A stretch of 64,000 nucleotides of DNA. Source: Candidatus Eremiobacteraceae bacterium. Its GTDB lineage: Bacteria; Vulcanimicrobiota; Vulcanimicrobiia; Eremiobacterales; Eremiobacteraceae. Position 1 is the first letter of the stretch. The number at the start of each line of letters is the position of its first letter. Position numbers and translations under genes: made by a program. Below the pieces are notes generated by a model. The model was not told the origin of the DNA. It ran no database searches and saw only the letters and a program-made list of their open reading frames with translations. The stretch lies in assembly GCA_035314825.1 (NCBI GenBank), contig DATFYX010000002.1:1-64000 (forward strand). Reading direction: 5' to 3'. Below are positions 17,113 through 32,388 of the stretch, in pieces.

Positions 17113-17137
17113 CTTATTGAGATTGATTATCAATAAG
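17113..17137. promoter_or_regulatory. Fur-box-like palindrome upstream of the first TonB cassette
   Basis: A 25-base near-palindrome: arms CTTATTGAGATT and ATTATCAATAAG flank a central G at 17125, with 10 of 12 positions pairing. Its core fits the classical 7-1-7 Fur box (TGATAAT-n-ATTATCA), and the right half (17126-17132) is an exact match. It agrees at 20 of 25 bases with the site at 32364-32388. It lies upstream of the -10 box at 17170. Confidence 0.75.
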
Positions 17138-17169
17138 ACCGGACTGAAATGACGAGCCGGCCGTGACGA

Positions 17170-17175
17170 TATAAT
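17170..17175 (+). promoter_or_regulatory. Consensus -10 box (TATAAT) of the first TonB cassette
   Basis: A perfect TATAAT overlaps the ATG at 17174, so that ATG cannot be used if this promoter is real. Translation must then start at ATG 17180 (nearly leaderless) or ATG 17219. No good -35 box is present, which suggests activator or sigma-factor dependence. Confidence 0.55.
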
Positions 17176-17179
17176 GGGT

Positions 17180-17797
17180 ATGCGCGCACGCCCGGGCGAC
17201 AACACGACGCGAAGCCTCATGCCCGTCTACCTCTGTCTGGTTGGTCTGGGCAGCATCGTCGCGCACATCGCCTCTGAGTTCTTCGCGATGGGCCCGGATG
17301 CCGACAGCATCGCGCTGTCGCCCAAACATTTGTATCTCGGCATCGCCGCGCTCGTCTGCGCTATCGTCGCGGTGCAGCAAGCCGTCGCATTGTGGCGCAG
17401 CTCCAGCAGCGGACGCGATCTCAAACGCCAGCTGCACGTCGGCCTCGAATCGCTGCCCTTCCGCGGCCGCGGCGCGTTTTACGCTTTCACCGCGGCGCTC
17501 CAGTTCGGCATCGGCCTGACGACCCAGATCGGCGAGGGCTGCCCGTTCTGCGGCCACGACATCGGCGCGGGCATCGCGGGAACCATTCTCACCGTTTTCC
17601 TCATGGCGCTCGCGGGGCGCGCCATCGGCCGGCGCCTGCCGACGATCGCAGCCGCGATCGCCGCCTTCTTCGTGCAGCCAAGTTCGCGTCCGCAGGCCTT
17701 GATCGCGACCCGCAACGTCGCCGTCCTCGGCTTGCCACGCTTCATCTGGTTCAGCCAGCTCTATAACCGCCCGCCTCCGTCCCTCTCGATAGCCTGA
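17180..17797 (+). CDS. Multi-pass membrane protein paired with a TonB receptor (copy 1)
   Basis: 205 residues if started at ATG 17180; ATG 17219 would give 192 and begins right at the first helix (PVYLCLVGLGSIVAHIASEF). About four membrane helices are visible, near 18-40, 50-75, 95-118 and 125-150. A conserved-looking His sits in VAHIASEF, and a cysteine/histidine cluster (GEGCPFCGHDIG) lies between helices 3 and 4. It resembles the protein at 22630-23301, which also directly precedes a TonB receptor. A role in metal handling at the inner membrane is inferred from the Cys/His pattern, the Fur-like site upstream and the SCO1 gene downstream. Confidence 0.72.
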   Translation: MRARPGDNTTRSLMPVYLCLVGLGSIVAHIASEFFAMGPDADSIALSPKHLYLGIAALVCAIVAVQQAVALWRSSSSGRDLKRQLHVGLESLPFRGRGAFYAFTAALQFGIGLTTQIGEGCPFCGHDIGAGIAGTILTVFLMALAGRAIGRRLPTIAAAIAAFFVQPSSRPQALIATRNVAVLGLPRFIWFSQLYNRPPPSLSIA

Positions 17798-17821
17798 CGG
17801 TCGAATAACCCAAGGACCGTC
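17796..17821. repeat. Intercistronic inverted repeat
   Basis: GACGGTC (17796-17802) and GACCGTC (17815-17821) form a 7-bp stem with a 12-base loop, starting within the stop region of the membrane-protein gene and ending 59 bases before the TonB receptor. No T-run follows; it may be an mRNA processing or stability element. Confidence 0.4.
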
Positions 17822-17880
17822 GTATCGTCGGATCGGCCGCGACAACCGCCGCGCCGTTCTATCGCGTTCGAGAGGAAATC

Positions 17881-20265
17881 ATGATGTCTATTCGCTTCTG
17901 CCGCGCGCTGTGCGCGGCGCTGACGCTGGCCGCCGTTGTCGCGGCGCCGGTCACGAGTCGTGCCGCGAGCGCCTATCTCGCAGGAAGAGTTATTGCGGAT
18001 GGCAAGCCGGTCGCAGGCGCCGCCGTCACGGCGACGGGCAATAACGTCGTACAAAAGACGAAAACCGATTCGCAAGGCTCATTCGGGTTCAGCACCCTGT
18101 CGCCCGGTACATACACGCTGAGTGCGACGGCTAGCGGTCGAAGCGGCAAGGTGACCGTCGACCTGCCGGCCAGCGGCGCGACCGTTACGCTCGAGTTGCG
18201 TGTGAAAACACTTGCGGTGGTCAACGCGAGCGCGCTGCGCACGGCGCCGGTTCGCGCGTCCGGAACGGACCTGACGATCAACTCGACCATCTTGAGCCGT
18301 ACCCCATCGGCAGGAAGCTTGCCGGAGATGCTCATCCAACTGCCGGGTGCGGCACGCGGCGCCAACGGCGTCGTGCACATCAACGGCGATCACGGCGACA
18401 TCAACTACGTGGTCGACGGCGTCTCGGTGCCGCAAGCGCTCAATCGCGTCATGGGCACTGAGTTCAACCCCGGCGACATCGCCTTCGTCGACGTGCTCGA
18501 GGGCGCGTATCCGGCGCAATATGGCGAGCGCTTCGCCTCCGTGCTCAACATCAGCACGCGCAACGCGCTCAGCATGCAGGCACCCGGCGCCTGGCTGAGC
18601 ATGCAAGGCGGATCCTTCGCCTCGTACGACGCGACGCTCGGCTACCACGATCGCGTCGGACGGGGATCGCTCGTGCTGGCGGTCGAGAACGGCAGCACGG
18701 ACCGCGGACTCGATCCTCCTAACCCGGTGTCGGTCAACAACCAAGCCAGCAACGCCAATCAGTTCTTGCGCTACACGTTGCCGTATGGGAAGGGCGGCGC
18801 CAACTTCGTGAATCTGACGGTGACGCACGCATACCGCACGTTCCAGATCCCGCTCGATATCAATGGCGGCCAGCCCGCGAGTACCGATGACGTCGAGACG
18901 CAGGACGATACGTTCGCCGCGCTCCAGTTTCGCCACGCGATCGGCGACCGCGGCGAGCTCTCGTTCGGCGGCGGATACAAACGCTCGCAGATCCGGGATT
19001 TCGGAGACCCCGTCGACGACTGGATCTACGGCGTGAACGTCAATATCGCCAACGGCGGGGCGCCGACGGACTGCTTCAACGCGTTCTCCATTCCCGCATA
19101 CACGACGACCACGTGCGGCTATTCGTTATACGACAACCGCACGGCGTACGATTACATCGCCAACATCGACTACGCGCTGAGCAGCCGGGTGCACACCGTG
19201 CGTTGGGGAGCGTCATATGACATCGCGGATGTCCCCAAGTATTACGACATCATCCTGCAGCCGGCGAACTACTTGTCGCCGCTGCTCGCGCCCGCCACGC
19301 CGCTGGCACCGTATCCCGTCATCGACAACGCGCCAAACGTCGGCCACACGGAGACGGCGTTTCTCCAGGACAGCTGGCAGATGGGGCCGCGGTACGAGCT
19401 TGACTACGGGCTGCGCTGGACCGCGTTCCAGGTCTTCTCGACGCAATTCGATCAGGGCTTCACGCAGTTCAGCCCTCGGATCAAGTTCACGCGGCTGTTC
19501 TCGGCGCGGGCCAGCGCCTACGTCTACTACGGAAGGTTCTTCACGCCGTTCTCGTTCGAGAACGTGTCGCCGTATGCGGCGTTCCTGCTCAACCTGCCGT
19601 TGCAGCCCACCCCGGCGCAGTTCGACCTTAAGCCGCAGCGCGACTCGGTCTATGAGATCGGCGGGCACCTGCCGCTCGGCGCCGGCGACCTGGGACTGCG
19701 CATCATGCAGAAGAACGCGACCGATCTGATCGACGACACGCAAGTGGGCGTCACGCTGCTGCATCAGGACATCAACTACCAACTCGGCCGCATCGCGACG
19801 CAATCCGCGTATTACCAGCAGCGGCTCGTGCGCAACGGCGAGTGGTACGTCAGCTTCAACCATACGTACTCGGTCAACAAGGGCTGCGAGACACAGCTCT
19901 TAGCCCCGTGCTTCGGCTCGCCGACGGACTGGACGCCGGCGGACCACGAGCAGCGCTGGGGCGCGACGGCCGGCGTGGTCTTCAACGACACGCGCGGCGG
20001 GTGGTTCTCGATGGACGAGGAATACGGCAGCGGCCTCTCTTCGTCGGCCTGTCCGCCCGACACGCCCGGTTTTTGCAAGTACACGCCGCACACGGTGTTC
20101 TCGTTGCAAAAGGGGTTTGGCCTTGGTCACAATGCAGCGCTGTGGGCCGGGATCGACAACTTGCTCAACAACCAGTACTGGATCACGCTTGACAATGCGC
20201 AGGGCAACCACTACGCTGCTGGACGCACGTTCGTCATGGGCGTGCGTATCGGCGCCGGCCAATGA
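17881..20265 (+). CDS. TonB-dependent outer-membrane receptor with N-terminal carboxypeptidase-regulatory-like domain (copy 1)
   Basis: 794 residues. A signal peptide ends near residue 29. A carboxypeptidase-D regulatory-like beta-sandwich follows (about 31-110: AGRVIADGKPVAGAAVTATG, then GSFGFSTLSPGTYTL). The plug domain is at about 120-230 (INYVVDGVSVPQALNR, then ADVLEGAYPAQYGERFASVLN-type strands) and the rest is beta-barrel. GAGAGGAAATC before ATG 17881 is a good ribosome-binding site. The last residues are not aromatic, which is unusual for a barrel protein. The ligand is unknown; overlap with the SCO1 gene and the Fur-like site upstream suggest a metal or metallophore, possibly copper. 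Confidence 0.88.
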   Translation: MMSIRFCRALCAALTLAAVVAAPVTSRAASAYLAGRVIADGKPVAGAAVTATGNNVVQKTKTDSQGSFGFSTLSPGTYTLSATASGRSGKVTVDLPASGATVTLELRVKTLAVVNASALRTAPVRASGTDLTINSTILSRTPSAGSLPEMLIQLPGAARGANGVVHINGDHGDINYVVDGVSVPQALNRVMGTEFNPGDIAFVDVLEGAYPAQYGERFASVLNISTRNALSMQAPGAWLSMQGGSFASYDATLGYHDRVGRGSLVLAVENGSTDRGLDPPNPVSVNNQASNANQFLRYTLPYGKGGANFVNLTVTHAYRTFQIPLDINGGQPASTDDVETQDDTFAALQFRHAIGDRGELSFGGGYKRSQIRDFGDPVDDWIYGVNVNIANGGAPTDCFNAFSIPAYTTTTCGYSLYDNRTAYDYIANIDYALSSRVHTVRWGASYDIADVPKYYDIILQPANYLSPLLAPATPLAPYPVIDNAPNVGHTETAFLQDSWQMGPRYELDYGLRWTAFQVFSTQFDQGFTQFSPRIKFTRLFSARASAYVYYGRFFTPFSFENVSPYAAFLLNLPLQPTPAQFDLKPQRDSVYEIGGHLPLGAGDLGLRIMQKNATDLIDDTQVGVTLLHQDINYQLGRIATQSAYYQQRLVRNGEWYVSFNHTYSVNKGCETQLLAPCFGSPTDWTPADHEQRWGATAGVVFNDTRGGWFSMDEEYGSGLSSSACPPDTPGFCKYTPHTVFSLQKGFGLGHNAALWAGIDNLLNNQYWITLDNAQGNHYAAGRTFVMGVRIGAGQ

Positions 20266-20918
20266 GCTTGGCGGCCTGGAAGTCGTTTGACGCGGCGGAA
20301 AAGCGCATCGTCCTGGGGGGCGCGGCGGTCTTGCTCGTCGGGATGGCATTGTGCGCCTATGCGCTGATACCTCAGCTTCGCGCGTGCGGCAATGCCTTGA
20401 ACGTCTGGCTCAGGGGCGGCACCGTGCAAGCGTCGATGGGGATCGCGGACCCACCACTGAAAGACACCGACAATCACGATTATGTCATCACCAAGCAGCC
20501 CGACGTGACGCAAGTCGTGTACTTCGGCTACACGCACTGTCCGGATGAATGCCCGACAGCCCTCAGCAAGATGGCACGGGCATATGACGAGCTTGGCCAG
20601 CCTCGCAGGCTGCGGCTGGTTTTCGTCAGCTTCGATCCGCAACGCGATACCCCACGAGTGCTCGGCGCGTATGTGCGGCGCTTCAAAGCGCCCATGGTCG
20701 GACTCGGCGGATCGACCGCTGCGGTGCGCGCCGCCATGAAGCGTTTCGGTGCCGACGCCGTGCGCATACCGCCGGAGCAGCCCGGCGCCAGCTATTCCTT
20801 CGCCCACACCAGCTCAGTGATCGTCGTGGGGCCCGACAACTCATCCGAAGCGATGTATCCGATCGAGGACATGGACGTCCACGACTTGGTGAAGACATTG
20901 CACCGCTATCTATGGTAG
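20262..20918 (+). CDS. SCO1/SenC-family copper chaperone
   Basis: 218 residues. One membrane anchor (about 16-36) is followed by a thioredoxin-like domain with the copper ligands of SCO proteins: Cys93 and Cys97 in THCPDECPTA, and His182 in SFAHTSSVIVVG. SCO1 proteins deliver copper to, or reduce, the CuA site of cytochrome c oxidase. ATG 20262 overlaps the TonB receptor stop (ATGA), so the receptor and the chaperone are co-translated. No oxidase genes are in the window. Confidence 0.92.
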   Translation: MSLAAWKSFDAAEKRIVLGGAAVLLVGMALCAYALIPQLRACGNALNVWLRGGTVQASMGIADPPLKDTDNHDYVITKQPDVTQVVYFGYTHCPDECPTALSKMARAYDELGQPRRLRLVFVSFDPQRDTPRVLGAYVRRFKAPMVGLGGSTAAVRAAMKRFGADAVRIPPEQPGASYSFAHTSSVIVVGPDNSSEAMYPIEDMDVHDLVKTLHRYLW

Positions 20919-20986
20919 GCGTGAGGAGTCGGAAGGGCGGTGGCGAAGCATGCGCCCCACCTGCCTCTCTCTTCTGAGGAGGACTC

Positions 20987-21445
20987 ATGCAAAGGGGCAA
21001 GTTTCTCGTTTGTGCACTCGCCGTCGCGGCGGCGGTCAACGGCCTAGCGACGAGCGCGACCATCGCGTGGTCGGCGGACACCCCGGTCATCGTCCAGCCG
21101 GACAACGTAAAGTGGGAACCGGTCAAGGGAATGACCGGTCTTGAGTCCGCGACGTTGTGGGGTGATCCCGACAAGGCCGGTGGCCAATATGCAATACGGT
21201 ACAAATTGCCTGACGGCTTCAAGTTCCCGCCGCACACGCACCCGCAAAGCGAACAGGTCACCGTCTTAAGCGGCACGTTCATGGTGGGCGTCGGCGACAA
21301 GGTAGACGCTGCGAAGATGCTCACCTTGCCGGCGGGATCCTACGTCGAAGTACCCGCCAACCTGCCGCACTACGCGCAAGCGAAAGGCGAGACGATTCTC
21401 GAGGTCCACGGCATCGGGCCCGACACCATCAACATGCTCAAGTAA
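20987..21445 (+). CDS. Exported cupin-domain protein
   Basis: 152 residues with a signal peptide (about 1-30, ending TIAWSADT). A single cupin domain follows, with the metal-binding motif HTHPQSEQVTVLSG near residues 84-97 and a second histidine motif (VPANLPHYAQAKG) near 125. This is the arrangement of small periplasmic cupins with unknown substrates. GAGGAGGA just before ATG 20987 is a strong ribosome-binding site. It lies 68 bases downstream of the SCO1 gene and may share its transcript. Confidence 0.85.
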   Translation: MQRGKFLVCALAVAAAVNGLATSATIAWSADTPVIVQPDNVKWEPVKGMTGLESATLWGDPDKAGGQYAIRYKLPDGFKFPPHTHPQSEQVTVLSGTFMVGVGDKVDAAKMLTLPAGSYVEVPANLPHYAQAKGETILEVHGIGPDTINMLK

Positions 21446-21479
21446 CGAGACCACTCAGGAATGACCGCGAAACCGCAGC

Positions 21480-21914
21480 TCAACCGGGCCGCGGTTTCTC
21501 ATTCCACGACCACCACACGAGATACCCGGCGGGGATGAGGGCGGCGCCGTCGCGGACCACCGTCCACCAAGTGACCGGATCGGTCTCGCGCGGTCCGAAG
21601 CAGCCGCACGGCGTCGGGATGCCGCGCATGACGACCGACGCGAGCGCCGCGATGAAGACGAGCAGCAGTGCGACCGAGACGACTGAGACGATACGCAGCT
21701 GCCAGCCCAGCAGCAGGTACAGGCCCAGCACGATTTCAAACAGCGGGAGAGCGATCGCCGAGAAGCCGACGAACCACGGCGGCAGGTCGAGCCGGAAGGC
21801 GACGATCGTCGAGCCGAGATCGGGTGCGTGGCCGACCTTGAGCACGCCGGCAGCGAGGAAGACCAGGCCGACGATGATGCGCGCGACGAGAGGTACGATT
21901 TGAAGACGGGGCAA
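21480..21914 (-). CDS. MauE/DoxX-like membrane protein
   Basis: 144 residues with four hydrophobic helices. The motifs GVLKVGHAPD near residue 22 and TPCGCFGPRETD near 103 are typical of the MauE/DoxX group, whose members support periplasmic thiol-disulfide chemistry together with thioredoxin-like partners. The only in-frame start is TTG 21914, preceded by GAAGG. It is divergent from the TlpA-like gene at 21948, which supports a shared redox role. Confidence 0.8.
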   Translation of the reverse strand: MPRLQIVPLVARIIVGLVFLAAGVLKVGHAPDLGSTIVAFRLDLPPWFVGFSAIALPLFEIVLGLYLLLGWQLRIVSVVSVALLLVFIAALASVVMRGIPTPCGCFGPRETDPVTWWTVVRDGAALIPAGYLVWWSWNEKPRPG

Positions 21915-21947
21915 TCGACACGACCTTCAGACACGGCACCAAGCGGT

Positions 21948-22541
21948 ATGCCGCTGCGGACCATTTTGCCGATAGTTCTCGGCGTCCTCGTCGTCGGCGC
22001 GATCATCATCTACGCGTGGACGCAGATGCACAAGCTGCCCAGCGCGGCGGTCGCGCCCAACGCGATCCCATCGGTGCCTCCGCCGCACAAGGAAGGCAGC
22101 CTGGCGCCGGCATTTTCTTTGCAGACGCCGCTCGGTCCGATAAGCAACGACACATTCGCCGGCAAGCCGTACATGCTCGAGCTGTTCGCGACGTGGTGTC
22201 CGCATTGCCAACGCATGACGGCCGTGTTGCGCTCGCTGCGCGCCAAGCTGCCCGAGTCGCGTTTCGGCATGGTATCTGTCACCGGCTCGCCCTATGGTGC
22301 AGGTTCGACCGAAGGCAGCCCGGTCGCCGAGAGTCAGGCAGATGTGGATCAGTTCGACAAGTATTTCAACATCACGTGGCCGTCGGCGTTCGATCCCGAT
22401 CTCAAGGTCGCGCAGACGTGGGGGCTCGATGGTTTTCCCACGATCTACATCGTGAACGCCAAGGGCACGATCGTCTTCGCCGGCAGCGGGGAGATGCCGG
22501 AGTCGCGCTTGCTGGAGGCCGCTCGCAAGGCCGGCGCGTGA
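21948..22541 (+). CDS. Membrane-anchored TlpA/ResA-like thioredoxin
   Basis: 197 residues. An N-terminal membrane anchor (about 5-25) precedes a thioredoxin fold with the active site WCPHC in LFATWCPHCQRM and the cis-Pro segment GLDGFPTIYIVN. Such proteins reduce disulfides outside the membrane, for example in cytochrome c or CuA maturation. The start is uncertain: ATG 21948 has a weak site, while TTG 21900 has GAGAGG five bases upstream and would add 16 residues, overlapping the start of the MauE-like gene on the other strand. Confidence 0.88.
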   Translation: MPLRTILPIVLGVLVVGAIIIYAWTQMHKLPSAAVAPNAIPSVPPPHKEGSLAPAFSLQTPLGPISNDTFAGKPYMLELFATWCPHCQRMTAVLRSLRAKLPESRFGMVSVTGSPYGAGSTEGSPVAESQADVDQFDKYFNITWPSAFDPDLKVAQTWGLDGFPTIYIVNAKGTIVFAGSGEMPESRLLEAARKAGA

Positions 22542-22618
22542 GGGCGGCCACAGGCTTTCTGAGAATCGGCTGAAGCCGCTTCGCGGGGTCGGCGGAGGTA
22601 GCACCTCGCGCTTAGCCG

Positions 22619-22624
22619 TATAAT
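22619..22624 (+). promoter_or_regulatory. Consensus -10 box immediately before a start codon
   Basis: TATAAT at 22619-22624 is followed by only five bases (ATCAA) and then the ATG at 22630. Transcription from it would begin at or next to the start codon, giving a leaderless mRNA. No clear -35 is seen. Confidence 0.55.
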
Positions 22625-22629
22625 ATCAA

Positions 22630-23301
22630 ATGGCTCGCCGGGACGTCTGCTGGCTGCTCATCGGGGCGATCGCGCTGATCGCGTCGCTGTTGGGCCACGC
22701 GCTGCAACTGCACATCGAGTCCGCGCACCTGTTCGGCACGGTGCGCGCGCTGTACAGCCACTCGCTGCAGACGCCGTTCGCGTACATCGCCTTCGGCCTC
22801 TTGCTCGTGTCGGCGCTGTTCATCGCGCGCGGAATCATCGAAAGCGTCCGCGACGAGTTCGACGGCGCCGATTGGCTGCTGCCCGCGCTCGATGCCGTGC
22901 GCTCGATATCGCCGGGCCGGCTGGTCGCCATCGTCGTCGGATTGCAGCTCACATCGCTCACGGTCGGTGAGTTGTCCGAACAGGCGCTCTCGTCGTACGA
23001 TGGTTTCGGCCTCGGCGCGATCTTCGGCCCCGGTCACTTGAGCGCTCCGTTCGTCCACATCGCGGTCGGTGCCGTTCTGGCGCTGGCGCTGCGCGCGTTC
23101 GCGCGCGCGGCCTGCGAGCGCGTCGCAGACATCGCGAGCTTCGTCCTCGTCGTGATCGGCCGGCTCGCTCAGCCGGCACCCGTGAACTGTGCTCCGGCGC
23201 TGCGCATCCTGTCGCTGCGCGCGCAGACCACCTCCCCACCGCTGCTGGCGCGCCACATCGCCAGCCGTCCTCCTCCGGTTCGCGCTGCCCTTGTAGCATA
23301 G
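22630..23301 (+). CDS. Multi-pass membrane protein paired with a TonB receptor (copy 2)
   Basis: 223 residues with about four membrane helices, near 8-28, 50-72, 95-120 and 138-160. Histidines are placed as if to bind metal (SLLGHALQLHIESAHLFG in helix 1, LYSHSL, FGPGHLSAPFVHIAVG). It aligns by eye along most of its length with the protein at 17180-17797, for example VGLQLTSLTVGELSEQ with AALQFGIGLTTQIGEG, and it too directly precedes a TonB receptor. I recognise no named family. A TATAAT box five bases before ATG 22630 suggests a leaderless transcript. Confidence 0.72.
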   Translation: MARRDVCWLLIGAIALIASLLGHALQLHIESAHLFGTVRALYSHSLQTPFAYIAFGLLLVSALFIARGIIESVRDEFDGADWLLPALDAVRSISPGRLVAIVVGLQLTSLTVGELSEQALSSYDGFGLGAIFGPGHLSAPFVHIAVGAVLALALRAFARAACERVADIASFVLVVIGRLAQPAPVNCAPALRILSLRAQTTSPPLLARHIASRPPPVRAALVA

Positions 23302-23359
23302 GCGGCCAAAACCGGCTTCCCGCCCTTTGGCCGCCACCTTACTCGGTGGAGGCCTTTCC

Positions 23360-25630
23360 ATGCGTTTTTCTTTCTTGTATTTCTTGGCGTGCATCGCGCT
23401 GGTCGCGGCGATGGCGACGATCGACTGTCTCGCTCCGGCTGCCGCTAGCACGCTTGGCGCGATCCGCGGCGCTGTCGTCGACGATGCGCAACACCCCGTG
23501 GTGCACGCCGCGGTCGTCGCCCAAAGCGGCGAGGGCAGCAAGCAGACGACGACCACCGACAGCGCCGGCCAATACGTCTTCCCGCGCCTTCCCTTCGACA
23601 CGTACACCGTGACCGTCACGGCCGCCGGTCTCGGCGCGCAGAGCGGCGTCGCGACGGTCACCAGCGGCAGCGCCGTCGTGCTGGACTTCCATCTTTCCAA
23701 GAAGACGCTCGCCACGGTCACTGCGGTCGCCAAAGCCGGGCATCCCGTGAGCGTCACGGTGCTCACGCCGCAGATGATCCAGACGCTCCCCGACAACTTC
23801 AAGCTGGCGCACGTGACGCAGACGGTGCCGGGCGTGGTGCCGTTCTCGTACGACGAGCCCGTGGCGCGCGGCTTCCATGGCATCTCGTATCAGATCGACG
23901 GCGTGCCGGTCCCGGACACGACGTCATCGTCGTTCTCCGAAGTGCTCGATCCGCGCGATGTCGGTTCGCTCGAGGTTTACACAGGATCGTTCCCAGCGGA
24001 GTTCGGCGGCAGCCGCATGGGCGGACTGGTCAACATCATCACCAAGCGGCCGTCGAGCAATGGCGGCGATGTCGTGCTGACCGGCGGCAACTACGCATCC
24101 GGTGGCACGCAGATCAGCGATCTGTTCGGGGGCGAGGCATTCAAGGCATACGTCTCGCTCAATCTTCAACGCAGCGATCGAGGCCTCGACACACCGACGC
24201 CCGATCCGCCCGTGCATGACGCCGCAAGTTCGAGCAATGAGTTCATGCGCCTGACCTACGAGCCCGACAAGCGCGATTCGTGGGCGCTGCATTTCTCCAA
24301 CCAGTTGGCGACGTTCCAGATCCCGATCGATACCGACCCTTCCAGCGTCAGCTTCTCGCCGCCCGGCACCGACGACAACCAGTACGAGTACAACCAATAC
24401 GCCAACATCATCTTCAACCGGCTAAGCGCCGACGGACAAGGCTACCTTGAGATCGCGCCGTGGTACAACCGCACGCAGGTCAAGTTCTTTCCCGATCCTG
24501 TGAACGATCTCGCCAGCGCGGCGATGGCATCTACGTTCCAGGACCGGGTCGGGACGTATTACGGCCTCACCACGGCATGGTTCCGCACGGACCCCAAAGA
24601 CAACATCAAGACGGGCTTCACCGCCTACACGGAAAATTTCGCAAGCCAGTTCAACATCCAGTTCATCGATTCGATGGGGATGCAGCAGCGCTTCGACGAC
24701 AACGTCGCGCAGACGGGCACCAACTTTGGCATCTACGCCGAAGACAAACGCATCCTGTCGCCGGTGTTCAGCGCCAACGTCGGCTTGCGCTACGATCGCT
24801 CCACGGGTTTCACGTCCGGCAACCAGGTGAGCCCGCGCATCGAGATCGACGCGCAGGCCCTCAATCCCAGCGACACGCTGCACGTCTACTACGGCCGGCT
24901 CTACGCGGCGCCGGCGCTTGAGGACACGCGCCGCTCTGCGGTCGTCATAAGCGGCGGCAACGGCCTGCCGGTCTACGACCTCAAACCCGAAACCGACTCG
25001 ATCTACGAATTCGGCTTCTCGCATCAGATGACGCCGACGGCGAAATGGTACGTCAACTACTGGGCGCGTGCGGTGGCGAACGTGCTCGACACGACGCAGA
25101 TCGGCTCGACGCCGATCTTCACGATTTTCAATTCGACGTCGGGTCGCGCACAGGGAGTCGAGTTCAGCTTCAGCGGCCAGACCCCGGGCAACGGCGACAG
25201 CTACTTTCTGTCCTATGGTCTCTCGCAAAGTCTCGCGTCAGGCATCTCGGGCGGCACGTTTCTGTTCTCGCCCGCCGATCTCCAGGGTGCGAATGGCTAT
25301 GCGCTCGAGGACCACGACCAGACCAACACGCTCAATGCGGGCTACACCTGGCGCTTCGCGCCCGACCGCTCGACGTATGCCAGCCTGCAGACCGAATACG
25401 GCAGCGGTTTCCCGGTGCAGTTCGAGAACGGCCAAGGACGGCTGCCGGCGCACTGGACGCTCAACGCGTCGTATGGACGCTTCGCATCGCGCGGACGGCT
25501 CGGCTATCAGATCCAGGCGACCAACATCACGAACAACCAATACCTGATCAAGCTCAATAACGGGTTCAACACGACGCAGTACGCGCGCGGACTGCAGATC
25601 ACCGGGCAGATCACCGCGCCCATCCTGTGA
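23360..25630 (+). CDS. TonB-dependent outer-membrane receptor with N-terminal carboxypeptidase-regulatory-like domain (copy 2)
   Basis: 756 residues. The signal peptide ends near 31 (LAPAAAS). A carboxypeptidase-regulatory-like domain follows at about 33-112, then a plug at about 125-235 (YQIDGVPVPDTTSSSFSEVL, FPAEFGGSRMGGLVNIITKR) and a long barrel. ATG 23360 is chosen because GGAGG lies 9 bases upstream; the frame opens at 23327 without such a site. It has the same architecture as the receptor at 17881 and the same kind of neighbour upstream. The substrate is unknown; the adjacent metal transport genes suggest a metal complex. Confidence 0.88.
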   Translation: MRFSFLYFLACIALVAAMATIDCLAPAAASTLGAIRGAVVDDAQHPVVHAAVVAQSGEGSKQTTTTDSAGQYVFPRLPFDTYTVTVTAAGLGAQSGVATVTSGSAVVLDFHLSKKTLATVTAVAKAGHPVSVTVLTPQMIQTLPDNFKLAHVTQTVPGVVPFSYDEPVARGFHGISYQIDGVPVPDTTSSSFSEVLDPRDVGSLEVYTGSFPAEFGGSRMGGLVNIITKRPSSNGGDVVLTGGNYASGGTQISDLFGGEAFKAYVSLNLQRSDRGLDTPTPDPPVHDAASSSNEFMRLTYEPDKRDSWALHFSNQLATFQIPIDTDPSSVSFSPPGTDDNQYEYNQYANIIFNRLSADGQGYLEIAPWYNRTQVKFFPDPVNDLASAAMASTFQDRVGTYYGLTTAWFRTDPKDNIKTGFTAYTENFASQFNIQFIDSMGMQQRFDDNVAQTGTNFGIYAEDKRILSPVFSANVGLRYDRSTGFTSGNQVSPRIEIDAQALNPSDTLHVYYGRLYAAPALEDTRRSAVVISGGNGLPVYDLKPETDSIYEFGFSHQMTPTAKWYVNYWARAVANVLDTTQIGSTPIFTIFNSTSGRAQGVEFSFSGQTPGNGDSYFLSYGLSQSLASGISGGTFLFSPADLQGANGYALEDHDQTNTLNAGYTWRFAPDRSTYASLQTEYGSGFPVQFENGQGRLPAHWTLNASYGRFASRGRLGYQIQATNITNNQYLIKLNNGFNTTQYARGLQITGQITAPIL

Positions 25631-25651
25631 TGGCGCGTTCGCTTGGATGCG

Positions 25652-26305
25652 CTACTGCGCGGTGTTCGCCTGGTTGTGCAGGTAGGCGTTGATGAACGAC
25701 TCGATCTTGGCCTGATCGAGCGTGTCGAGCGTGCCAAGGCGCGTCCATGCGGTCAGCGCGATCTTATGCTTCATGCCCGGGTACGGCGCGACCACGACCG
25801 ATTCGCCGGCTTCCTCCGCGCCCTGCACCTGCGCCGGTGATGCCTGGAGTTGATCCGGCGGGATGAGCCGGCTGTCGTACTTGTACGCGATCTGGTAGAG
25901 CGCGCCGGCGATATCCGGGCAGTTGCAGTTGTACTGCAATAGCACGTTGCCGTGCTCGAGCAGGTGGGCCTGGACGTATGCGGGCAGCGGCGTCGCGTTG
26001 TTGAACGACGTGCTGAAGGCTTCTTTATGCGGGCCTGAGGTCGGCGGATCCGAATTGTAGGCGAACTTCGTCGATTCGCCCTCGTCGAAGTGGCGATGGC
26101 CTTGGGACGGATAGTGCGTGCCAAGGAACTGCAACGTGATCGTCTGCGGGGCGGTGCTCGCCGACGCGGCGCTGGGCGCCGCGGCTGAGGATGAGGATGG
26201 TGGGCTTGCGTCGCCGCCGCCGCTCTTGGAACAGCCGCCCAGCAGCAGAGGACCGGCGAGCAGCAGCGCGGCGAACACGGCGGCGCGCGCGATCGTCTTC
26301 ATCAT
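25652..26305 (-). CDS. DUF3105 lipoprotein
   Basis: 217 residues with a lipoprotein signal (LLLGGC, Cys25). A Ser/Ala/Pro-rich linker is followed by a DUF3105 domain: FAYNSDPPTSGPHKEAF, then AHLLEHGNVLLQYNCNCPD and VVAPYPGMKHKIALTAWTR. The CNC within the normally non-cysteine region after LEHG is unusual. ATG 26305 overlaps the stop of its paralogue upstream. Function of DUF3105 is not established; conserved His, Glu and here two Cys suggest a metal site. It is the last gene of the dtxR-nramp run and converges on the TonB receptor. Confidence 0.82.
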   Translation of the reverse strand: MMKTIARAAVFAALLLAGPLLLGGCSKSGGGDASPPSSSSAAAPSAASASTAPQTITLQFLGTHYPSQGHRHFDEGESTKFAYNSDPPTSGPHKEAFSTSFNNATPLPAYVQAHLLEHGNVLLQYNCNCPDIAGALYQIAYKYDSRLIPPDQLQASPAQVQGAEEAGESVVVAPYPGMKHKIALTAWTRLGTLDTLDQAKIESFINAYLHNQANTAQ

Positions 26306-26997
26306 TGCGCTGCGTTCGTCGTATTCGAGAGGTACGCGTTGATGAATCGGATCATCTTGGCTTGATCGATCGAATCGAACGGCTCCAGGCGCGTCCAGGC
26401 GGTCAGCGCGATCTTGTATTTCATCGGCGGGTACGGCGCGACGATCACGCCCTTGCCGTATTCTTCGATGCGCTGGATATCATCGGACGAGAGCTGGGTC
26501 TCGCCGGGAGACAGCTGCTGGTTGTTGTAGCTCGACGCGATCTGCGCGAGCGCGCCGGCGATGTCCGGGCACTTGCAGTTGTACTGCATGAGCACGTTGC
26601 CGTGTTCGAGCAGATGGACTTGCAGATATTTCGGCAGCGGCGTCGCGTTGATGAGCAGGGGCGAGAACTGCTCCAAATGCATCCCGGACGTCGGCGGATC
26701 CGAGTTGTACGCGAACGTGGCGACCCCGGGTTGCTTCGGATCGGTCTTGTCATGGCCCGGATGCCCTTGGGGTTTAAAATGCATGCCGGGAGTCTCGGCC
26801 GGGCGCGGCAGCGGCGTCGCGGTCGGCGTCGCCGTCGCCGCTGGCCCGAGCGCCACCGGGGCGTTGCGATGCGTGACCGCGAGCGCGATCAGCGCGATCA
26901 GACCGACGACGACCAGCACGCCGAAGCCGAGCGTCATGATGCGGCCGGTTGGATCGACCGGCGCCGGCGTTGGATTTTTCGACATCGGGCGCGTCAT
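26302..26997 (-). CDS. DUF3105 membrane-anchored protein
   Basis: 231 residues. One membrane helix (about 21-43) anchors a DUF3105 domain facing outwards: FAYNSDPPTSGMHLEQF, VHLLEHGNVLMQYNCKCPD and VIVAPYPPMKYKIALTAWTR. It is a clear paralogue of the next gene, also with a CxC motif (CKC). ATG at 26997 may be replaced by ATG 26985 (MSKNP). The tandem arrangement, one copy membrane-anchored and one a lipoprotein, suggests they work on the same extracytoplasmic substrate. Confidence 0.82.
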   Translation of the reverse strand: MTRPMSKNPTPAPVDPTGRIMTLGFGVLVVVGLIALIALAVTHRNAPVALGPAATATPTATPLPRPAETPGMHFKPQGHPGHDKTDPKQPGVATFAYNSDPPTSGMHLEQFSPLLINATPLPKYLQVHLLEHGNVLMQYNCKCPDIAGALAQIASSYNNQQLSPGETQLSSDDIQRIEEYGKGVIVAPYPPMKYKIALTAWTRLEPFDSIDQAKMIRFINAYLSNTTNAAQ

Positions 26998-27024
26998 TCG
27001 CGGCGCCCGCGATGCGCGCCTGTC

Positions 27025-27156
27025 TTAGTGAAGCGCTTTGACGAATGCGTACACGACAAGCGGCACAGCGATCAAGACGTAGATGCGCAGCACCCACAAC
27101 AGCGCCGTTATCCCCGGGCTGAGCTTGCGACGGCCGAAGCGCGGTGTACCGTTCAC
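27025..27156 (-). CDS. 43-residue single-span membrane peptide
   Basis: GTG 27156 overlaps the stop of the Nramp-like gene by four bases (GTGA), and the frame ends at TAA 27025. The peptide has a basic N-terminus (NGTPRFGRRKLSPG), one hydrophobic helix (ITALLWVLRIYVLIAVPLVV) and a short tail (YAFVKALH). Coupling to the transporter and the clear membrane helix make a real gene likely; it could be a small transporter-associated subunit. No homologue recognised. Confidence 0.62.
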   Translation of the reverse strand: MNGTPRFGRRKLSPGITALLWVLRIYVLIAVPLVVYAFVKALH

Positions 27157-28505
27157 TTCGGGATCACCTGCGGGAACACGGTGATGACCCCGTACGCACT
27201 GCCCATCAGCGCGATCGCGATGACGATGGCGCCGCCGATAAGGTTGCTCTTCGGACCGTTGGCGAGCGATCCGATGACCTCGCGATCGTTGGCCAGCAGC
27301 AACAGGAAGAGCAGCGCCGGCGCCATGAGCAGCGTGGCGATGACGTTGACCGCGATGGTGATCGCCAGCAGCGGCGCGTGCGGGATGAGCACGACGGCGG
27401 CGGCGAGTGCCACGGACGCGGCCAAGGACACGTAGAACGCTCGTGCACTGGAGAAACTCGCATTGAGGCTGTGCTTGGCGCGCAGCACTTCGCCGACCGC
27501 ATAGGCGGAGCTGGTCGAGATCGTCATCGCCGCGACCAGCCCGGCCTCGATCATGCCGAGCGCGAACAACGCGGCCCCGACGCTTCCGATGTACGGGTGC
27601 AACGCGGTCGCGAAATCAGCGCCGCCGGCGAACGTCGACGCGACGACGTGGTGCGTGAACAACGGCACGGCTGCCAGGACCGCGGCGATCGCCGCCACGG
27701 CGGCCACGAGCGCGCCCAGCGCGGTGTCGAATCTGCCTTGCGGCAGATCAGCGGCAGTCAACCCTTTGTCAACCACGGCGCTTTGCTGGAAGAAGATCAT
27801 CCATGGCGTGACGGTCGCGCCCACGTCGGCCATGAGCAAGGTGACGAAGCCGGCCGTCACGCCGCCTGCAAGCGGGCTCCACGTGCCGAAAGCGCGGGCG
27901 ACGGCCGCCGCGTCGGGATGCGCGAACATCGCGGCCGGCACGAATAAGAGATTGAACGCCGCCAGGACGAGCACAGCGCGCTCCCAGGTGAAGTAGCGCC
28001 GCGCGCTCACCATGAGGAGCACCAGCGCCGCGCCGACGCCGACCGCGATCGGCGCGGAGATGCCGAAATACGCGGCCCCGGCCCGGATGGCGATGAACTC
28101 GGTGATCAGCGTGAGGATGTTGCCGATCGCGAGATCGAGCATCGAGAAATATCCCCAGAAGGGTCCGAAGCGCTCGAAGATCAGTTCGGCATGGCCGCAG
28201 CGCGTCGCGATGCCCAGCCGGACGGTCATCTCCTGCACGACGAACGCCATCGCGAACGTCAGGACGATGAACGGCAGGAAGAAGCCGATGCCGTAGGCCG
28301 CGCCGGTCGTCGCATACGACAGCATGCTCGGGCCGTCGTTCTCGCCCAGCATGACCAAGATACCGGGGCCCGCCAGCAAGAAGAACAGCCACAGCGGCCG
28401 GTGGCTCGCGCGCGCCTGCGCGACGCGCTGTCTATCGAGCGAACGCAGTTGTTCATCGCGGGCGTCGAGCTCCGTGAATTCCGCCGGCCTGGCGATGTCA
28501 CTCAC
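27153..28505 (-). CDS. Nramp-family metal transporter with altered metal-site motifs
   Basis: 450 residues and about 11 membrane helices, with the Nramp pattern through the middle. The helix-1 motif, normally DPGN, reads NDGPS (56-60). The helix-6 motif, normally MPHN, reads TPWM (233-236), so the metal-coordinating Met is Thr. Classical Nramp proteins import Mn2+ or Fe2+ with protons; loss of the Met is associated with harder ions in characterised relatives. ATG 28505 overlaps the dtxR-like stop by 8 bases, so regulator and transporter are co-expressed. Confidence 0.85.
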   Translation of the reverse strand: MSDIARPAEFTELDARDEQLRSLDRQRVAQARASHRPLWLFFLLAGPGILVMLGENDGPSMLSYATTGAAYGIGFFLPFIVLTFAMAFVVQEMTVRLGIATRCGHAELIFERFGPFWGYFSMLDLAIGNILTLITEFIAIRAGAAYFGISAPIAVGVGAALVLLMVSARRYFTWERAVLVLAAFNLLFVPAAMFAHPDAAAVARAFGTWSPLAGGVTAGFVTLLMADVGATVTPWMIFFQQSAVVDKGLTAADLPQGRFDTALGALVAAVAAIAAVLAAVPLFTHHVVASTFAGGADFATALHPYIGSVGAALFALGMIEAGLVAAMTISTSSAYAVGEVLRAKHSLNASFSSARAFYVSLAASVALAAAVVLIPHAPLLAITIAVNVIATLLMAPALLFLLLLANDREVIGSLANGPKSNLIGGAIVIAIALMGSAYGVITVFPQVIPK

Positions 28506-29169
28506 GGCGGGTACGCTCCACGAGCACCGCGTCGACGATTGCAGCTGCGAGCGTGACCTCGGCGCCGCGCACGCGCAGCGTGGTCGTGCGCGGCGTGCGA
28601 TTCAGGATCTTCACATCGGAGCCGGGCAGCAAGCCGTGACGCGAGAGCGCGCGCACGACGCGTGCGTCGCGATCCGCGATGCGCGTGATGCGCATCGTGC
28701 GGCCGACCGGTGCTTGCGCGAGCGGCCCGTCGCGGCGGCCCTTTCCACCGGTGCCGGGGATGAGATCGCCGTGGGGGTCGAACTGCGGGTGGCCGAGCAG
28801 GTGCTCGAGCCGCTTCGCGACGTCGTCGGAGATCACGTGCTCGATGCGCTCGGCTTCGGCATGAAGGCGCTCCAGCGGCACGCCCAACGCCTGATGCAAG
28901 AAGGTCTCGACGATGCGATGGCGGCGCACCACCGCGAGCGCGAGCTTGCCGCCTTTGGCGCTGAGCTGCAACTGACCGCCGCCCAGCGCGCGCACGTAGC
29001 CGCGGCGCTGCAGATCGCGCGCAAGCTTGCTCACCGATGCGCGCGACACGCCGAGCCGGCGCGCGACGTCGGCCGGCTTGACGGGCTGGCCGTCGCCGAG
29101 CTGAAGGATGGCTTTGCAGTAGTCCTGTCGCGCGCGTTCGGGCGAGCGGTCCTGTCCTGTGTTAACCAT
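28498..29169 (-). CDS. DtxR/MntR-family metal-dependent repressor
   Basis: 223 residues: winged helix-turn-helix (about 14-70, DVARRLGVSRASVSKLARDL), a metal-binding/dimerisation domain (about 75-140, with RRHRIVETFL and AERIEHVISDD supplying the usual His, Glu, Glu-His ligands) and a FeoA/SH3-like C-terminal domain (about 150-222). In the first helix the MntR Glu11 position reads Lys (QDYCKAI), so one ligand may be missing. ATG 29169 lies inside a tandem palindrome that looks like its own operator. It heads the nramp-DUF3105 operon. Confidence 0.9.
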   Translation of the reverse strand: MVNTGQDRSPERARQDYCKAILQLGDGQPVKPADVARRLGVSRASVSKLARDLQRRGYVRALGGGQLQLSAKGGKLALAVVRRHRIVETFLHQALGVPLERLHAEAERIEHVISDDVAKRLEHLLGHPQFDPHGDLIPGTGGKGRRDGPLAQAPVGRTMRITRIADRDARVVRALSRHGLLPGSDVKILNRTPRTTTLRVRGAEVTLAAAIVDAVLVERTRRE

Positions 29170-29192
29170 GGCTAACGTCAACCATGGTTAAC
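29161..29192. promoter_or_regulatory. Tandem 16-bp palindromic operator over the dtxR-like start
   Basis: Two abutting 16-mers, 29161-29176 and 29177-29192, are each a one-mismatch version of the perfect palindrome GTTAACCATGGTTAAC. They cover the start codon and the bases just upstream. Size, symmetry and the TTAACC/GGTTAA half-sites fit DtxR/MntR/SirR operators, so autoregulation by the adjacent repressor is the natural reading. Confidence 0.8.
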
Positions 29193-29224
29193 TATCGGGG
29201 CCGGCACCGCCTGCCGAAGGTTTC

Positions 29225-29674
29225 TTAGGTGTGAGCCTCGTCCGGCGCGCAACGCCGGCACAGTCCGTAGAACTCCAGGCGGTGGCGGCGCAGCTGGAAA
29301 CGCAGCTGCTGGGCCAGGGTCCGCGCGAAGCGGTCCACCGAGCCGCACGGCACGTCGTCGACCTTGCCGCACTCGACGCACACCGCGTGGTGGTGATGCT
29401 GCGCGGGCGGACAGAACAGATACGACGCCTCGCCGTGGTCGCCCGGCTCGCGCGCGGCCGCCCCGATCTTCTCAAGGACCTCGAGCGTGCGGTAGACGGT
29501 GGCCAACGCGACGCCGGGATGCCGGCGCGCGAGGCGCTCGTGCAGCTCTTGCGGCGTCACGTAGCGTCGCAGGCGCGTGAACTCGCCGACGATGGCTTTG
29601 CGCTGGCTCGTCATGCGGCAGCCAGCGCGGGCGAGCTCGGTGTGGACGGCGCCTTCGACCTCGGTCGCGCTCAT
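29225..29674 (-). CDS. fur: Fur-family metalloregulator
   Basis: 149 residues. A winged helix (TPQELHERLARRHPGVALATVYRTLEVL in two parts, about 38-70) is followed by the metal/dimer domain with the HHHH cluster (AQHHHHAVCVECGKV) and two zinc CxxC motifs (CVEC and CRRC). Whether it senses iron, zinc or manganese cannot be told; gene order with a Zn/Mn-type ABC importer favours Zn or Mn. ATG 29674 overlaps the permease stop, so it is the last gene of the importer operon. The Fur-like box at 32364-32388 upstream of that operon would give feedback control. Confidence 0.92.
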   Translation of the reverse strand: MSATEVEGAVHTELARAGCRMTSQRKAIVGEFTRLRRYVTPQELHERLARRHPGVALATVYRTLEVLEKIGAAAREPGDHGEASYLFCPPAQHHHHAVCVECGKVDDVPCGSVDRFARTLAQQLRFQLRRHRLEFYGLCRRCAPDEAHT

Positions 29675-30543
29675 CGCGCCGCCTGCTCCTGCTGCGCGTG
29701 GCGGCGCGCTTCGAGCACCTGCGTGAGCAGCGAGCGACGCTTGGGCGAGAGCGCCATCGCTGCGAAGAAGCACAGCGTGGCGGTGAGCACGATCGTGGAC
29801 CCGGATGCGGCGTTGAGATAATACGACGCATACAGCCCGACCACGGCCGATCCGACGCCGATGCACGCCGAGGTGGCCATCATCGGCCCGAAACGATTGG
29901 TCAGCTGATATGCCGCCGCGGCCGGCGTGACCAGCAGCGCCGCGACGAGCACGATCCCCGCCGCCTGAAGCGACACGACGATGGTCACCGCAAGGATGAC
30001 GAGCAGCAGATTGCTCAGCGCGGTCGTCGGCAGGCCGCTCGCCTGCGCCATGAGCGGATCAAACGACGCGAACAGCAGCTCTTTGTACAGCGCGAAGATC
30101 ACGAGCAGCACGCCGATCGTGAGGCTGGCGACGAGGAAGATGTCGGTGCGGTCGACCGAGAGGACGTTGCCGAACAAGAAGTCCTGCAGATCGACGATAT
30201 AGTTCCGCGCACGCGACATGAGCAGTACGCCGAGCGCGAAGACGGCGGTGAACATGACGCCGATCGCGGTGTCGGTCGAGACTTCGGAGCGACGGCTGAT
30301 GGCGCCGATGCCCAGCGCGGTGAGGATGGCCACGATGAGCCCGCCGACGTACAAGTTGGCCTTGAACAGATATGCGATCACGATGCCGGCGAAGGACGCA
30401 TGCGCGATGCCGTCGCCGATGAACGAAAGGTTGCGCAACACCACGTACACGCCGACCACGCTGCACACCAGACCGATGAGCGTGGACGCGATGAGCGCGC
30501 GCACCATGAACTCTTGTTGCAGCGGCGCGAGCAACCAGTCCAT
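29671..30543 (-). CDS. ABC metal importer permease (ZnuB/MntB type)
   Basis: 290 residues with about eight membrane helices. Family motifs include VLRNLSFIGDGIAHASFAG near residue 36 and the AAGIVLVAALLVTPAAAAYQ segment near 200, typical of the ABC-3 family (ZnuB, MntB, TroC). It forms the channel of a Zn2+/Mn2+ importer with the neighbouring ATPase and binding protein. Three bases separate it from the ATPase gene; its stop overlaps fur. Confidence 0.93.
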   Translation of the reverse strand: MDWLLAPLQQEFMVRALIASTLIGLVCSVVGVYVVLRNLSFIGDGIAHASFAGIVIAYLFKANLYVGGLIVAILTALGIGAISRRSEVSTDTAIGVMFTAVFALGVLLMSRARNYIVDLQDFLFGNVLSVDRTDIFLVASLTIGVLLVIFALYKELLFASFDPLMAQASGLPTTALSNLLLVILAVTIVVSLQAAGIVLVAALLVTPAAAAYQLTNRFGPMMATSACIGVGSAVVGLYASYYLNAASGSTIVLTATLCFFAAMALSPKRRSLLTQVLEARRHAQQEQAAR

Positions 30544-30546
30544 GGG

Positions 30547-31455
30547 CTAGAGCTGCGCCGAACGGACGGCGGCTTGGGCCTCGGGGATGACGAGCACGTG
30601 GCTGCCGAACGTCGCCGACAGCGTCGCATCGGTGAGCACCTCGGTCGGCGGGCCGTATGCGATCACGCGGTGGTTGAGGCACAGCACTTTATCGAACCAG
30701 GTGGCGACGCACGAGAGGTCGTGCGTGGTCGCGACGATGGTCATGCCCTTCTTCTTGCGCTCCTCGAGCAGGGTGAAGATCGCATGCTGGCTGGTCGCGT
30801 CGACGCCTGCGATCGGCTCGTCGAGCAGCAGCAGCTGCGGGTTCTGCACGAGCGAGCGCGCGACGAACACGCGCTGTTGCTGGCCCCCGGAAAGCTCGCC
30901 GATCTGCGATGCCGCGTGATCGGCCATGCCAACTTCTTCGAGCGCGGCCATCGCCGCGCGCTTTTCGGTCTCGCCGGGGCGCCGGAACAGCCCGAGCTTG
31001 CCGTAGACGCCCATGAGCACGACGTCAAAGACCGTGACTGGGAATGACCAATTGACGTCTTCGGTCTGCGGCACGTAGCCGACGCCCGGGCCATGGCCGG
31101 GCGGCGCGCCGAGCACTTCGATCAATCCGCACTGCGGTTCCAATAAACCGGCGATCACTTTGAGCAGCGTCGACTTGCCCGAGCCGTTTGGGCCGATGAT
31201 GCCGACGAACTCACCGCGCACGACCTCGAAGCTGATCTCGTCGAGCACGTCGCGGCCGAAATAGCCCGCGCACATGCCCTCGCACAGGATCGCCGTGCCC
31301 GCCGGGGCCTTGCCCGCCTGGTGCCGCGCGGGATGGTGATCGGCGTGTCGATGAAGATGCGGCGCAACGGCAGGGACCGCGTGGCTGTGATCTTGCGGCG
31401 CGACCGGTGCCGCTGGATCGACGTGCGTGTGGTCGTGCTCGTGGAGTTCGCTCAT
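30547..31455 (-). CDS. ABC metal importer ATPase with His-rich N-terminal extension
   Basis: 302 residues, about 45 more than usual. The extra N-terminus contains 12 histidines between residues 5 and 45 (for example HEHDHTH and HLHRHADHH). The ATPase follows: Walker A GPNGSGKST (88-96), signature LSGGQQQR and Walker B LLLLDEPIAGVD, then the switch His in TTHD. ZnuC/MntA-like ATPases drive import; His-rich tracts in such systems normally store or sense Zn2+ or Ni2+, usually in the binding protein. ATG 31455 overlaps the stop of the binding-protein gene (ATGA). Confidence 0.93.
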   Translation of the reverse strand: MSELHEHDHTHVDPAAPVAPQDHSHAVPAVAPHLHRHADHHPARHQAGKAPAGTAILCEGMCAGYFGRDVLDEISFEVVRGEFVGIIGPNGSGKSTLLKVIAGLLEPQCGLIEVLGAPPGHGPGVGYVPQTEDVNWSFPVTVFDVVLMGVYGKLGLFRRPGETEKRAAMAALEEVGMADHAASQIGELSGGQQQRVFVARSLVQNPQLLLLDEPIAGVDATSQHAIFTLLEERKKKGMTIVATTHDLSCVATWFDKVLCLNHRVIAYGPPTEVLTDATLSATFGSHVLVIPEAQAAVRSAQL

Positions 31456-32378
31456 CTCAAAGCCTGCACGATCGTGTCGACGTCATAGTGCATCATCCCC
31501 TCGTAGGTCTGGAGCTGCGGCGTGGTGCCAAGCGTATCGTCGTAGAGATCGCTCACCGTCTTGATGCCGGCGCTTGTGGCGAGCGCCTGCGCGAGCTTGG
31601 GCGAGAACTGCGGCTCGGCGAACACCGCGCGCACGTGATTGGCGCGCGCCTGCGCGATGAGCGCGGACAGATACGCCGCTGAGGGCTGCTGGCCCGGCGA
31701 TGGTTCGATGGCTCCGATGTCGCGCAAGCCGTAACGCTGGTCGAAATAATACCACGCATCGTGGAACGTGAGCATCGTGCGATTGGCTTGCGGGATGGTC
31801 GCGATCTGTTCGCGGATCCACGCGTCGAGCGCGCGCAGCCGCGCGGTCTCGCGCGTTTCATTCGCGCTGTAGTATGCCGCGTTGGGCGGGTCGACGTCGC
31901 GCAATGCCGCCGCGATCTTATGCACGTACACTTGCGCGTACGTCACATCCAGCCACAGGTGCGGGTTGCCGGGCTCGCCTGCGGCTTTGGCCCCCTCGAC
32001 CGGCATGCCATCCGATAGCACGATCACTTTGGTGCCCGGCTTGGCGACGTTGCGCAGGACCTTGTCGAGCCACAGCTCCAGACCGGCGCCGTTCTTGATG
32101 ATGAGTTGAGCATTCGCCAGCGCCACGAGGTCTTGCGGCGACGGATCGTAGGTCTCGGGTGATGCGCCGATAGGCACGATGCTGATGACATCGGCCTTAT
32201 CGCCGCCGACGGCTTGCGCCAGCGCTTGGATGGTCGAGATCGTGGCGGCCGCCTGGACGCGCCGACTGCCTGCCGGCGAAGGCTCCGCGGCGGGCTTTTG
32301 AGACGAACAGCCCGCGCAAAGTACCGCAAACGCCAGCGCACCGGAGGCCGCGTACGGCCGAACCTTATCGAGAATCAT
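31452..32378 (-). CDS. Metal-binding lipoprotein of ABC importer (ZnuA/TroA family)
   Basis: 308 residues; signal peptide with a lipobox-like CAGC at 21-24. Cluster A-I binding protein: His140 (GNPHLWLDV), His206 (FHDAWYYF) and an Asp in DLYDDTLG fit the Zn-type site. The first ligand, normally His in a PHxY segment, is Glu75 (SPETYDPSPQD). There is no His-rich loop; the His-rich stretch is on the partner ATPase instead. ATG 32378 has no Shine-Dalgarno sequence and is read from an apparently leaderless promoter that overlaps a Fur-like palindrome. Confidence 0.9.
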   Translation of the reverse strand: MILDKVRPYAASGALAFAVLCAGCSSQKPAAEPSPAGSRRVQAAATISTIQALAQAVGGDKADVISIVPIGASPETYDPSPQDLVALANAQLIIKNGAGLELWLDKVLRNVAKPGTKVIVLSDGMPVEGAKAAGEPGNPHLWLDVTYAQVYVHKIAAALRDVDPPNAAYYSANETRETARLRALDAWIREQIATIPQANRTMLTFHDAWYYFDQRYGLRDIGAIEPSPGQQPSAAYLSALIAQARANHVRAVFAEPQFSPKLAQALATSAGIKTVSDLYDDTLGTTPQLQTYEGMMHYDVDTIVQALR

Positions 32379-32388
32379 TCTCGATAAG
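32364..32388. promoter_or_regulatory. Perfect Fur-box-like palindrome at the importer promoter
   Basis: Left arm CTTATCGAGAAT (32364-32375) is the exact reverse complement of the right arm (32377-32388), with C32376 at the centre: a perfect 12-1-12 palindrome. The core fits the 7-1-7 Fur box at 5 of 7 bases per half. It covers the -10 box edge and the start codon of the binding-protein gene, so a bound repressor would block transcription. Confidence 0.85.

Follow-up and report, generated by a model that had tools for sequence, protein, structure and literature searches.

A predicted two-locus, probably zinc-responsive FUR-family regulon joining a ZnuABC-type importer and a TonB receptor cassette in Candidatus Eremiobacteraceae

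In the genome of an uncultured soil bacterium, a Candidatus Eremiobacteraceae MAG (Candidatus Eremiobacterota; G000, 2.55 Mb, 97% complete), two matching palindromes are, judging from sequence, probably operators through which a FUR-family protein, most likely responding to zinc (Zur), controls a small regulon; this regulon comprises znuABC and the pair MP1-TBDT1, an unnamed membrane protein and a TonB-dependent receptor. Both palindromes lie in the window, that is, the whole stretch of 64,000 nucleotides that was analyzed, and enclose an island of 15 kb. The box is conserved in front of the same two gene sets in relatives, and the genes in between vary.

Two palindromes at the heads of convergent gene runs

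Operator 1 (17113-17137), CTTATTGAGATTGATTATCAATAAG, has 10 of 12 complementary pairs, and operator 2 (32364-32388), CTTATCGAGAATCATTCTCGATAAG, all 12. A recount confirmed the positions given by the first-pass annotation and the identity of the two sites at 20 of 25 positions; with one site reverse-complemented, the agreement is 21 of 25. In a whole-genome search with a degenerate 25-mer allowing up to 3 mismatches, these two sites were the sole matches (reversed control, 0). Against the classical 7-1-7 Fur box TGATAATNATTATCA, operator 1 scores 12/14 and operator 2 10/14, a value that three further places in the window reach as well, so that the earlier claim of two Fur boxes holds only loosely.

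The island consists of two convergent gene runs with one box at the front of each, and it is in this sense that it is “bounded” by palindromes. The plus-strand run (17174-25630) comprises MP1 (17174-17797), TBDT1 (17881-20265), a SCO1/SenC protein (20262-20918), a cupin protein (20987-21445) that is also found in the sister genome G001, a TlpA/Redoxin thiol-disulfide protein (21828-22541, with the true start probably at ~21948), the MP1 paralogue MP2 (22630-23301) and a second TonB-dependent receptor, TBDT2 (23327-25630); a MauE/DoxX-type membrane protein (21480-21914, E=1.7e-23) lies inside this run on the minus strand. The minus-strand run (32378-25652) comprises a ZnuA-type lipoprotein (31452-32378), a ZnuC-type ATPase (30547-31455), a ZnuB-type ABC permease (29671-30543), the FUR-family regulator (29225-29671), a DtxR/MntR-type regulator with a FeoA domain (28498-29181), an Nramp-family transporter (27153-28505) and two DUF3105 proteins (b, 26302-26997; a, 25652-26305). 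Domain matches, namely, CarboxypepD_reg plus Plug/barrel in the receptors (the CarboxypepD_reg domain is present in TBDT1), ABC-3, ABC_tran and ZnuA in the importer, and Pfam or other family matches for the rest, bear out the original gene calls for the TonB receptors, SCO1, TlpA, MauE, both DUF3105 proteins, Nramp, DtxR, FUR and the importer. No site was found upstream of the middle genes of the 15 kb.

Conservation of the box in related genomes

The 25-mer was present in 10 of 61 related genomes, all from the same GTDB family, in which the box consensus is TATCGAGAATNATTCTCGATA. Using a position-specific score trained on the znuA sites and scanning wider stretches around the loci, we detected the box upstream of znuA in all 13 family genomes that have the znuABC-fur operon, and upstream of MP1-TBDT1 in 8 of the 10 with this adjacent pair (G000, G003, G004, G009, G010, G011, G012 and G013), where it lies between or upstream of MP1/MP2. 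The MP1 sites, which had no part in training the score, provide an independent test, and each of the 8 upstream scores exceeds those of all 300 randomised sequences; operator 1 itself has a PWM score of 28.5, reached by 0 of 300 randomised upstream regions. By the same score, G001 and G006 encode MP1-TBDT1 with no recognisable site upstream. The 492 kb of family sequence scanned contain a single additional position above 8, scoring 9.2. Genome-wide matches with 0-1 mismatch, among the matches listed, are all located at the znuA and MP1 gene sets, and in G005 and G007, which have no MP1, the znuA site stands alone among the strong matches. The two-locus extent of the regulon is defined by this site scan, with COG0523 and the L31/L36 paralogues covered through sites only.

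The enrichment of the palindrome upstream of metal genes in relatives, on which the first-pass annotation depended, was thus found, and its placement of one box before a TonB-receptor unit and the other before a metal ABC importer with a regulator is upheld by the conserved sites. The bounding geometry, in contrast, is not kept: in several relatives, the MP1-TBDT1 and MP2-TBDT2 pairs diverge from a single box that lies between them. In a second family (f2), no box upstream of MP1 was recognisable with the PWM of the first, except for G112, which has a half-site-like match scoring 10.3.

The FUR-family regulator and the proposed mechanism

The only FUR-family gene of the genome (29225-29671, minus strand; Pfam FUR, E=9.5e-27) starts within the end of znuB. 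The structural Cys4 motif CxxC...CxxC is present in the 13 aligned FUR members, and all 13 family proteins carry a Cys a few residues before HHHH, aligned with a Cys of both ScZur and MtFurB and located at what we take to be the Asp85 ligand position of PerR. The ligands D65 of ScZur and H77 of EcZur are not conserved; by residue count, the position varies within the alignments. These ligands are not strictly shared even by EcZur and the actinobacterial Zurs, and in ScZur, promoter binding is almost completely lost in the C79S mutant (PMC6103462). Zur and PerR are not told apart by overall similarity: among solved relatives, PerR (2fe3) scores highest, with Zur marginally lower, and none of the NCBIfam Zur/Fur models reached its cut-off. 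Given the alignment of the Zur-type Cys with ScZur and MtFurB, together with the presence of two DtxR-family proteins in the genome, Zur is favoured. In our reading, the box is more probably an operator for Zur, the zinc regulator, than a Fur box for iron, and the regulator, originally called fur, is better read as a Zur. Other bacteria are known to have Zur boxes of the 7-1-7 type and TonB receptors controlled by Zur (PMC6103462).

In the mechanism that we infer, a dimer of the metal-bound regulator, the metal presumably being zinc, would bind operator 2, covering the znuA start codon and probably the transcription start, and the regulator would likewise occupy operator 1 upstream of MP1-TBDT1, so that both units, each presumably co-transcribed within its run, would be silenced. 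Upon metal starvation, the protein would be released from both operators; TBDT1 and its putative membrane partner MP1 would then bring the metal, the likely receptor substrate, into the periplasm, from where ZnuABC would move it into the cytosol. Because its gene is the fourth in the znu operon, the regulator would be autoregulated.

The importer and its operator-embedded start codon

Operator 2 overlaps the start codon of znuA: the ATG at the center of the palindrome opens an in-frame ZnuA in 13 of 13 genomes, all with the N-terminus M(I/V)L(D/G) ahead of a lipoprotein signal, and in 7 of the 13, there is no other ATG, GTG or TTG within the next 21 codons. By inspection, no Shine-Dalgarno-like sequence is apparent before this ATG, and in several genomes, including G000, TTGACA occurs near znuA ~18 bases before a TANNNT-like hexamer. 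The simplest reading is that znuA has a leaderless message, the start of which would lie under the operator.

In all aligned ZnuA members, the first His ligand is replaced by Glu (GASPETY; PETY/PETF), and the resulting set, E-H-H-D, is neither the usual Zn set nor the usual Mn set. The top NCBIfam model is Deinococcus MntC for ZnuA, level with the zinc protein AztC, and Deinococcus MntA for ZnuC, for which the closest solved ATPase belongs to a manganese importer. In all 8 genomes inspected, ZnuC carries a His-rich N-terminal tail of ~45 aa (HDHTHV...HSHAV...HLHxHxxH, with small variations); such a tail on the ATPase side of a transporter (ZnuC, 30547-31455, minus strand) is unusual. As a separate observation, a gene without a Pfam family lies just 3' of fur at locus L084 (5540-6334), with similar genes in G004, G005, G007, G012 and G013; it is missing in G000.

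A membrane protein family preceding TonB receptors

At E<=0.001 or 0.01, neither MP1 nor MP2 had a match in Pfam or NCBIfam, and MP1 alone as a query against genome contigs gave no match. The two proteins are related (hhalign E=3.7e-6, probability 87%), and share with their family a conserved His/Glu in the first helix (HxxxEF in MP1, which also contains GEGCPFCGHD) and a C-terminal R(P/A/G)PP present in most members (NRPPP in MP1, SRPPP near the C-terminus of MP2). MP1 was found in 19 of 149 Eremiobacterota genomes and MP2-like proteins in 31 of 148. Across the phylum, the MP family usually directly precedes a TonB receptor: in the second family, the TBDT1 orthologue is directly 3' of MP1 at 8 of 10 loci, and at least 7 of the distant MP2-like proteins fetched stand before receptors containing CarboxypepD_reg and/or TonB-barrel domains; for three, a CopC/CopD-like region follows, and for two, a c-type cytochrome. 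G124 has a FUR-family gene of another type oriented divergently from MP1-TBDT1 (L112, 8520-9638). An assignment of MP1 or MP2 to MauE/DoxX was rejected: neither matches PF07291 or PF07681, and the real MauE is the minus-strand gene at 21480-21914.

We suggest that MP is an inner-membrane partner of the TonB receptor. A broader and more tentative proposal, which we regard as possible rather than probable, is that MP1 and MP2 represent an undescribed, phylum-wide family of ~210 aa, the members of which would be dedicated inner-membrane partners of one class of TonB receptors and of related metal or cytochrome modules, with one such pair here serving as the outer-membrane arm of the zinc regulon. 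AlphaFold models built on 4-row alignments have mean pLDDT of 50 (MP1) and 54 (MP2), too low for a fold search, and among solved structures, no relative of TBDT1 identifies a substrate.

Variable genes between the operators

The fixed 15-kb unit is rejected because the genes between the boxes differ between relatives. Among the family genomes surveyed, SCO1 adjoins the MP1-TBDT1 cassette in G000 alone; in another family, G089 has SCO1 and TlpA near MP1-TBDT1. Close to the second receptor cassette, G004 encodes CopC and CopD, beside MP2, and G008 encodes NicO with a CsoR/RcnR-type repressor. Beside DtxR, the genomes G001, G012 and G005 encode an Nramp of the canonical type, with a DPGN motif in G001. 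Overall, the Nramp type, DtxR, the position of TlpA, CopC/CopD and NicO all differ, and some relatives have none of these genes. A fixed core around which metal genes gather is a better description of the region; SCO1, TlpA, MauE, DtxR/Nramp and DUF3105 are passengers that vary, or read-through members, and do not belong to the conserved regulon. MauE/DoxX and TlpA point away from each other, ~34 bases apart (21480-21948), an arrangement that looks kept in G001 and G005.

The “Nramp-like transporter” of the first-pass annotation does belong to the Nramp family, with the qualification that it is non-canonical and NRMT-like: the only solved relative found is EleNRMT (7qia), and the binding site of the G000 protein, DxxS-AxxT by alignment reading, does not match the NRMT magnesium signature DxxG-TxxA/T. 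This gene (27153-28505, minus strand) occupies the place of the canonical DPGN Nramp of the sister genome G001.

Alternative explanations

It is unlikely, although less so than the other alternatives, that the regulator is a Mn or Fe sensor (Mur/Fur-like), the boxes a Mn/Fe operator and the importer a Mn/Fe ABC system. The MntC and MntA models, the manganese-importer ATPase, the Mn-site composition of E-H-H-D, the resemblance of operator 1 to the Fur box and the DtxR-Nramp genes next on the same strand all point this way, against which stand the Zur-type Cys in 13/13 proteins, the two DtxR-type regulators already available for Mn/Fe and the His-rich ZnuC tail. We therefore retain the zinc-responsive regulon as the preferred, if provisional, reading.

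The co-directional runs, with SCO1, TlpA and MauE close by, originally suggested one dedicated pathway from the outer membrane to the cytosol and on to copper-enzyme assembly, and CopC/CopD beside MP2 in G004, the CopC/CopD-like genes beside MP paralogues at three loci, and SCO1 and TlpA near MP1-TBDT1 in G089 are compatible with it. Because the intervening genes change from genome to genome (NicO, CopC/D, a canonical Nramp or none), no such conserved pathway is apparent; moreover, SCO1 is absent from the other family cassettes, and the middle genes lack sites, so that we consider a dedicated pathway very improbable. As for chance similarity or unrelated repeats, a notion that could draw on there being two copies only, one with two mismatched pairs, it is hardly credible, being refuted by conservation: throughout the GTDB family, the box stands before the same orthologous genes, and there are no strong matches elsewhere.

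Significance and comparison with known systems

A literature search combining Zur, TonB-dependent and zinc with Eremiobacterota found, among the papers listed, none on the phylum. The present analysis offers a testable candidate regulon for metal uptake in a phylum that is largely uncultured, together with a consensus for its operator and one candidate regulator. In addition, a family without a Pfam or NCBIfam entry that is found repeatedly 5' of TonB receptors might be a missing component of receptor function, and the center of an operator coincides with the start codon of the gene that it probably controls, znuA.

With respect to the Nramp, NRMTs have DxxG-TxxA/T and canonical Nramps DxxN-A/CxxM at the binding site (PMC8806188); the G000 protein, with DxxS-AxxT, differs from both and shares with the NRMT branch (EleNRMT) the lack of the transition-metal Met. 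The regulator shares with actinobacterial Zur (ScZur, 3mwm; MtFurB, 2o03) the Cys before HHHH and the Cys4 CxxC...CxxC, and differs in that Asp65 of ScZur is not conserved and in having one more invariant Cys, located in V(D/E)(D/E)VPC.

Because Zur control of TonB receptors is well documented in other bacteria (PMC6103462, PMC4176598), this is a system of a known kind. The Zur regulons of Caulobacter (znuGHI/znuK), Neisseria (znuABC/TonB receptors) and Pseudomonas (znuD) likewise combine a FUR-family regulator, a palindromic operator and an ABC importer with an outer-membrane receptor (PMC6103462, PMC4176598). The G000 system differs from these in belonging to another phylum, in its box, TATCGAGAATNATTCTCGATA, in having two target loci only, in the location of the znuA start codon in the operator, and in the pairing of the receptor with an unnamed membrane protein. 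What is new here is the box, the operator-embedded znuA start and the MP partner.
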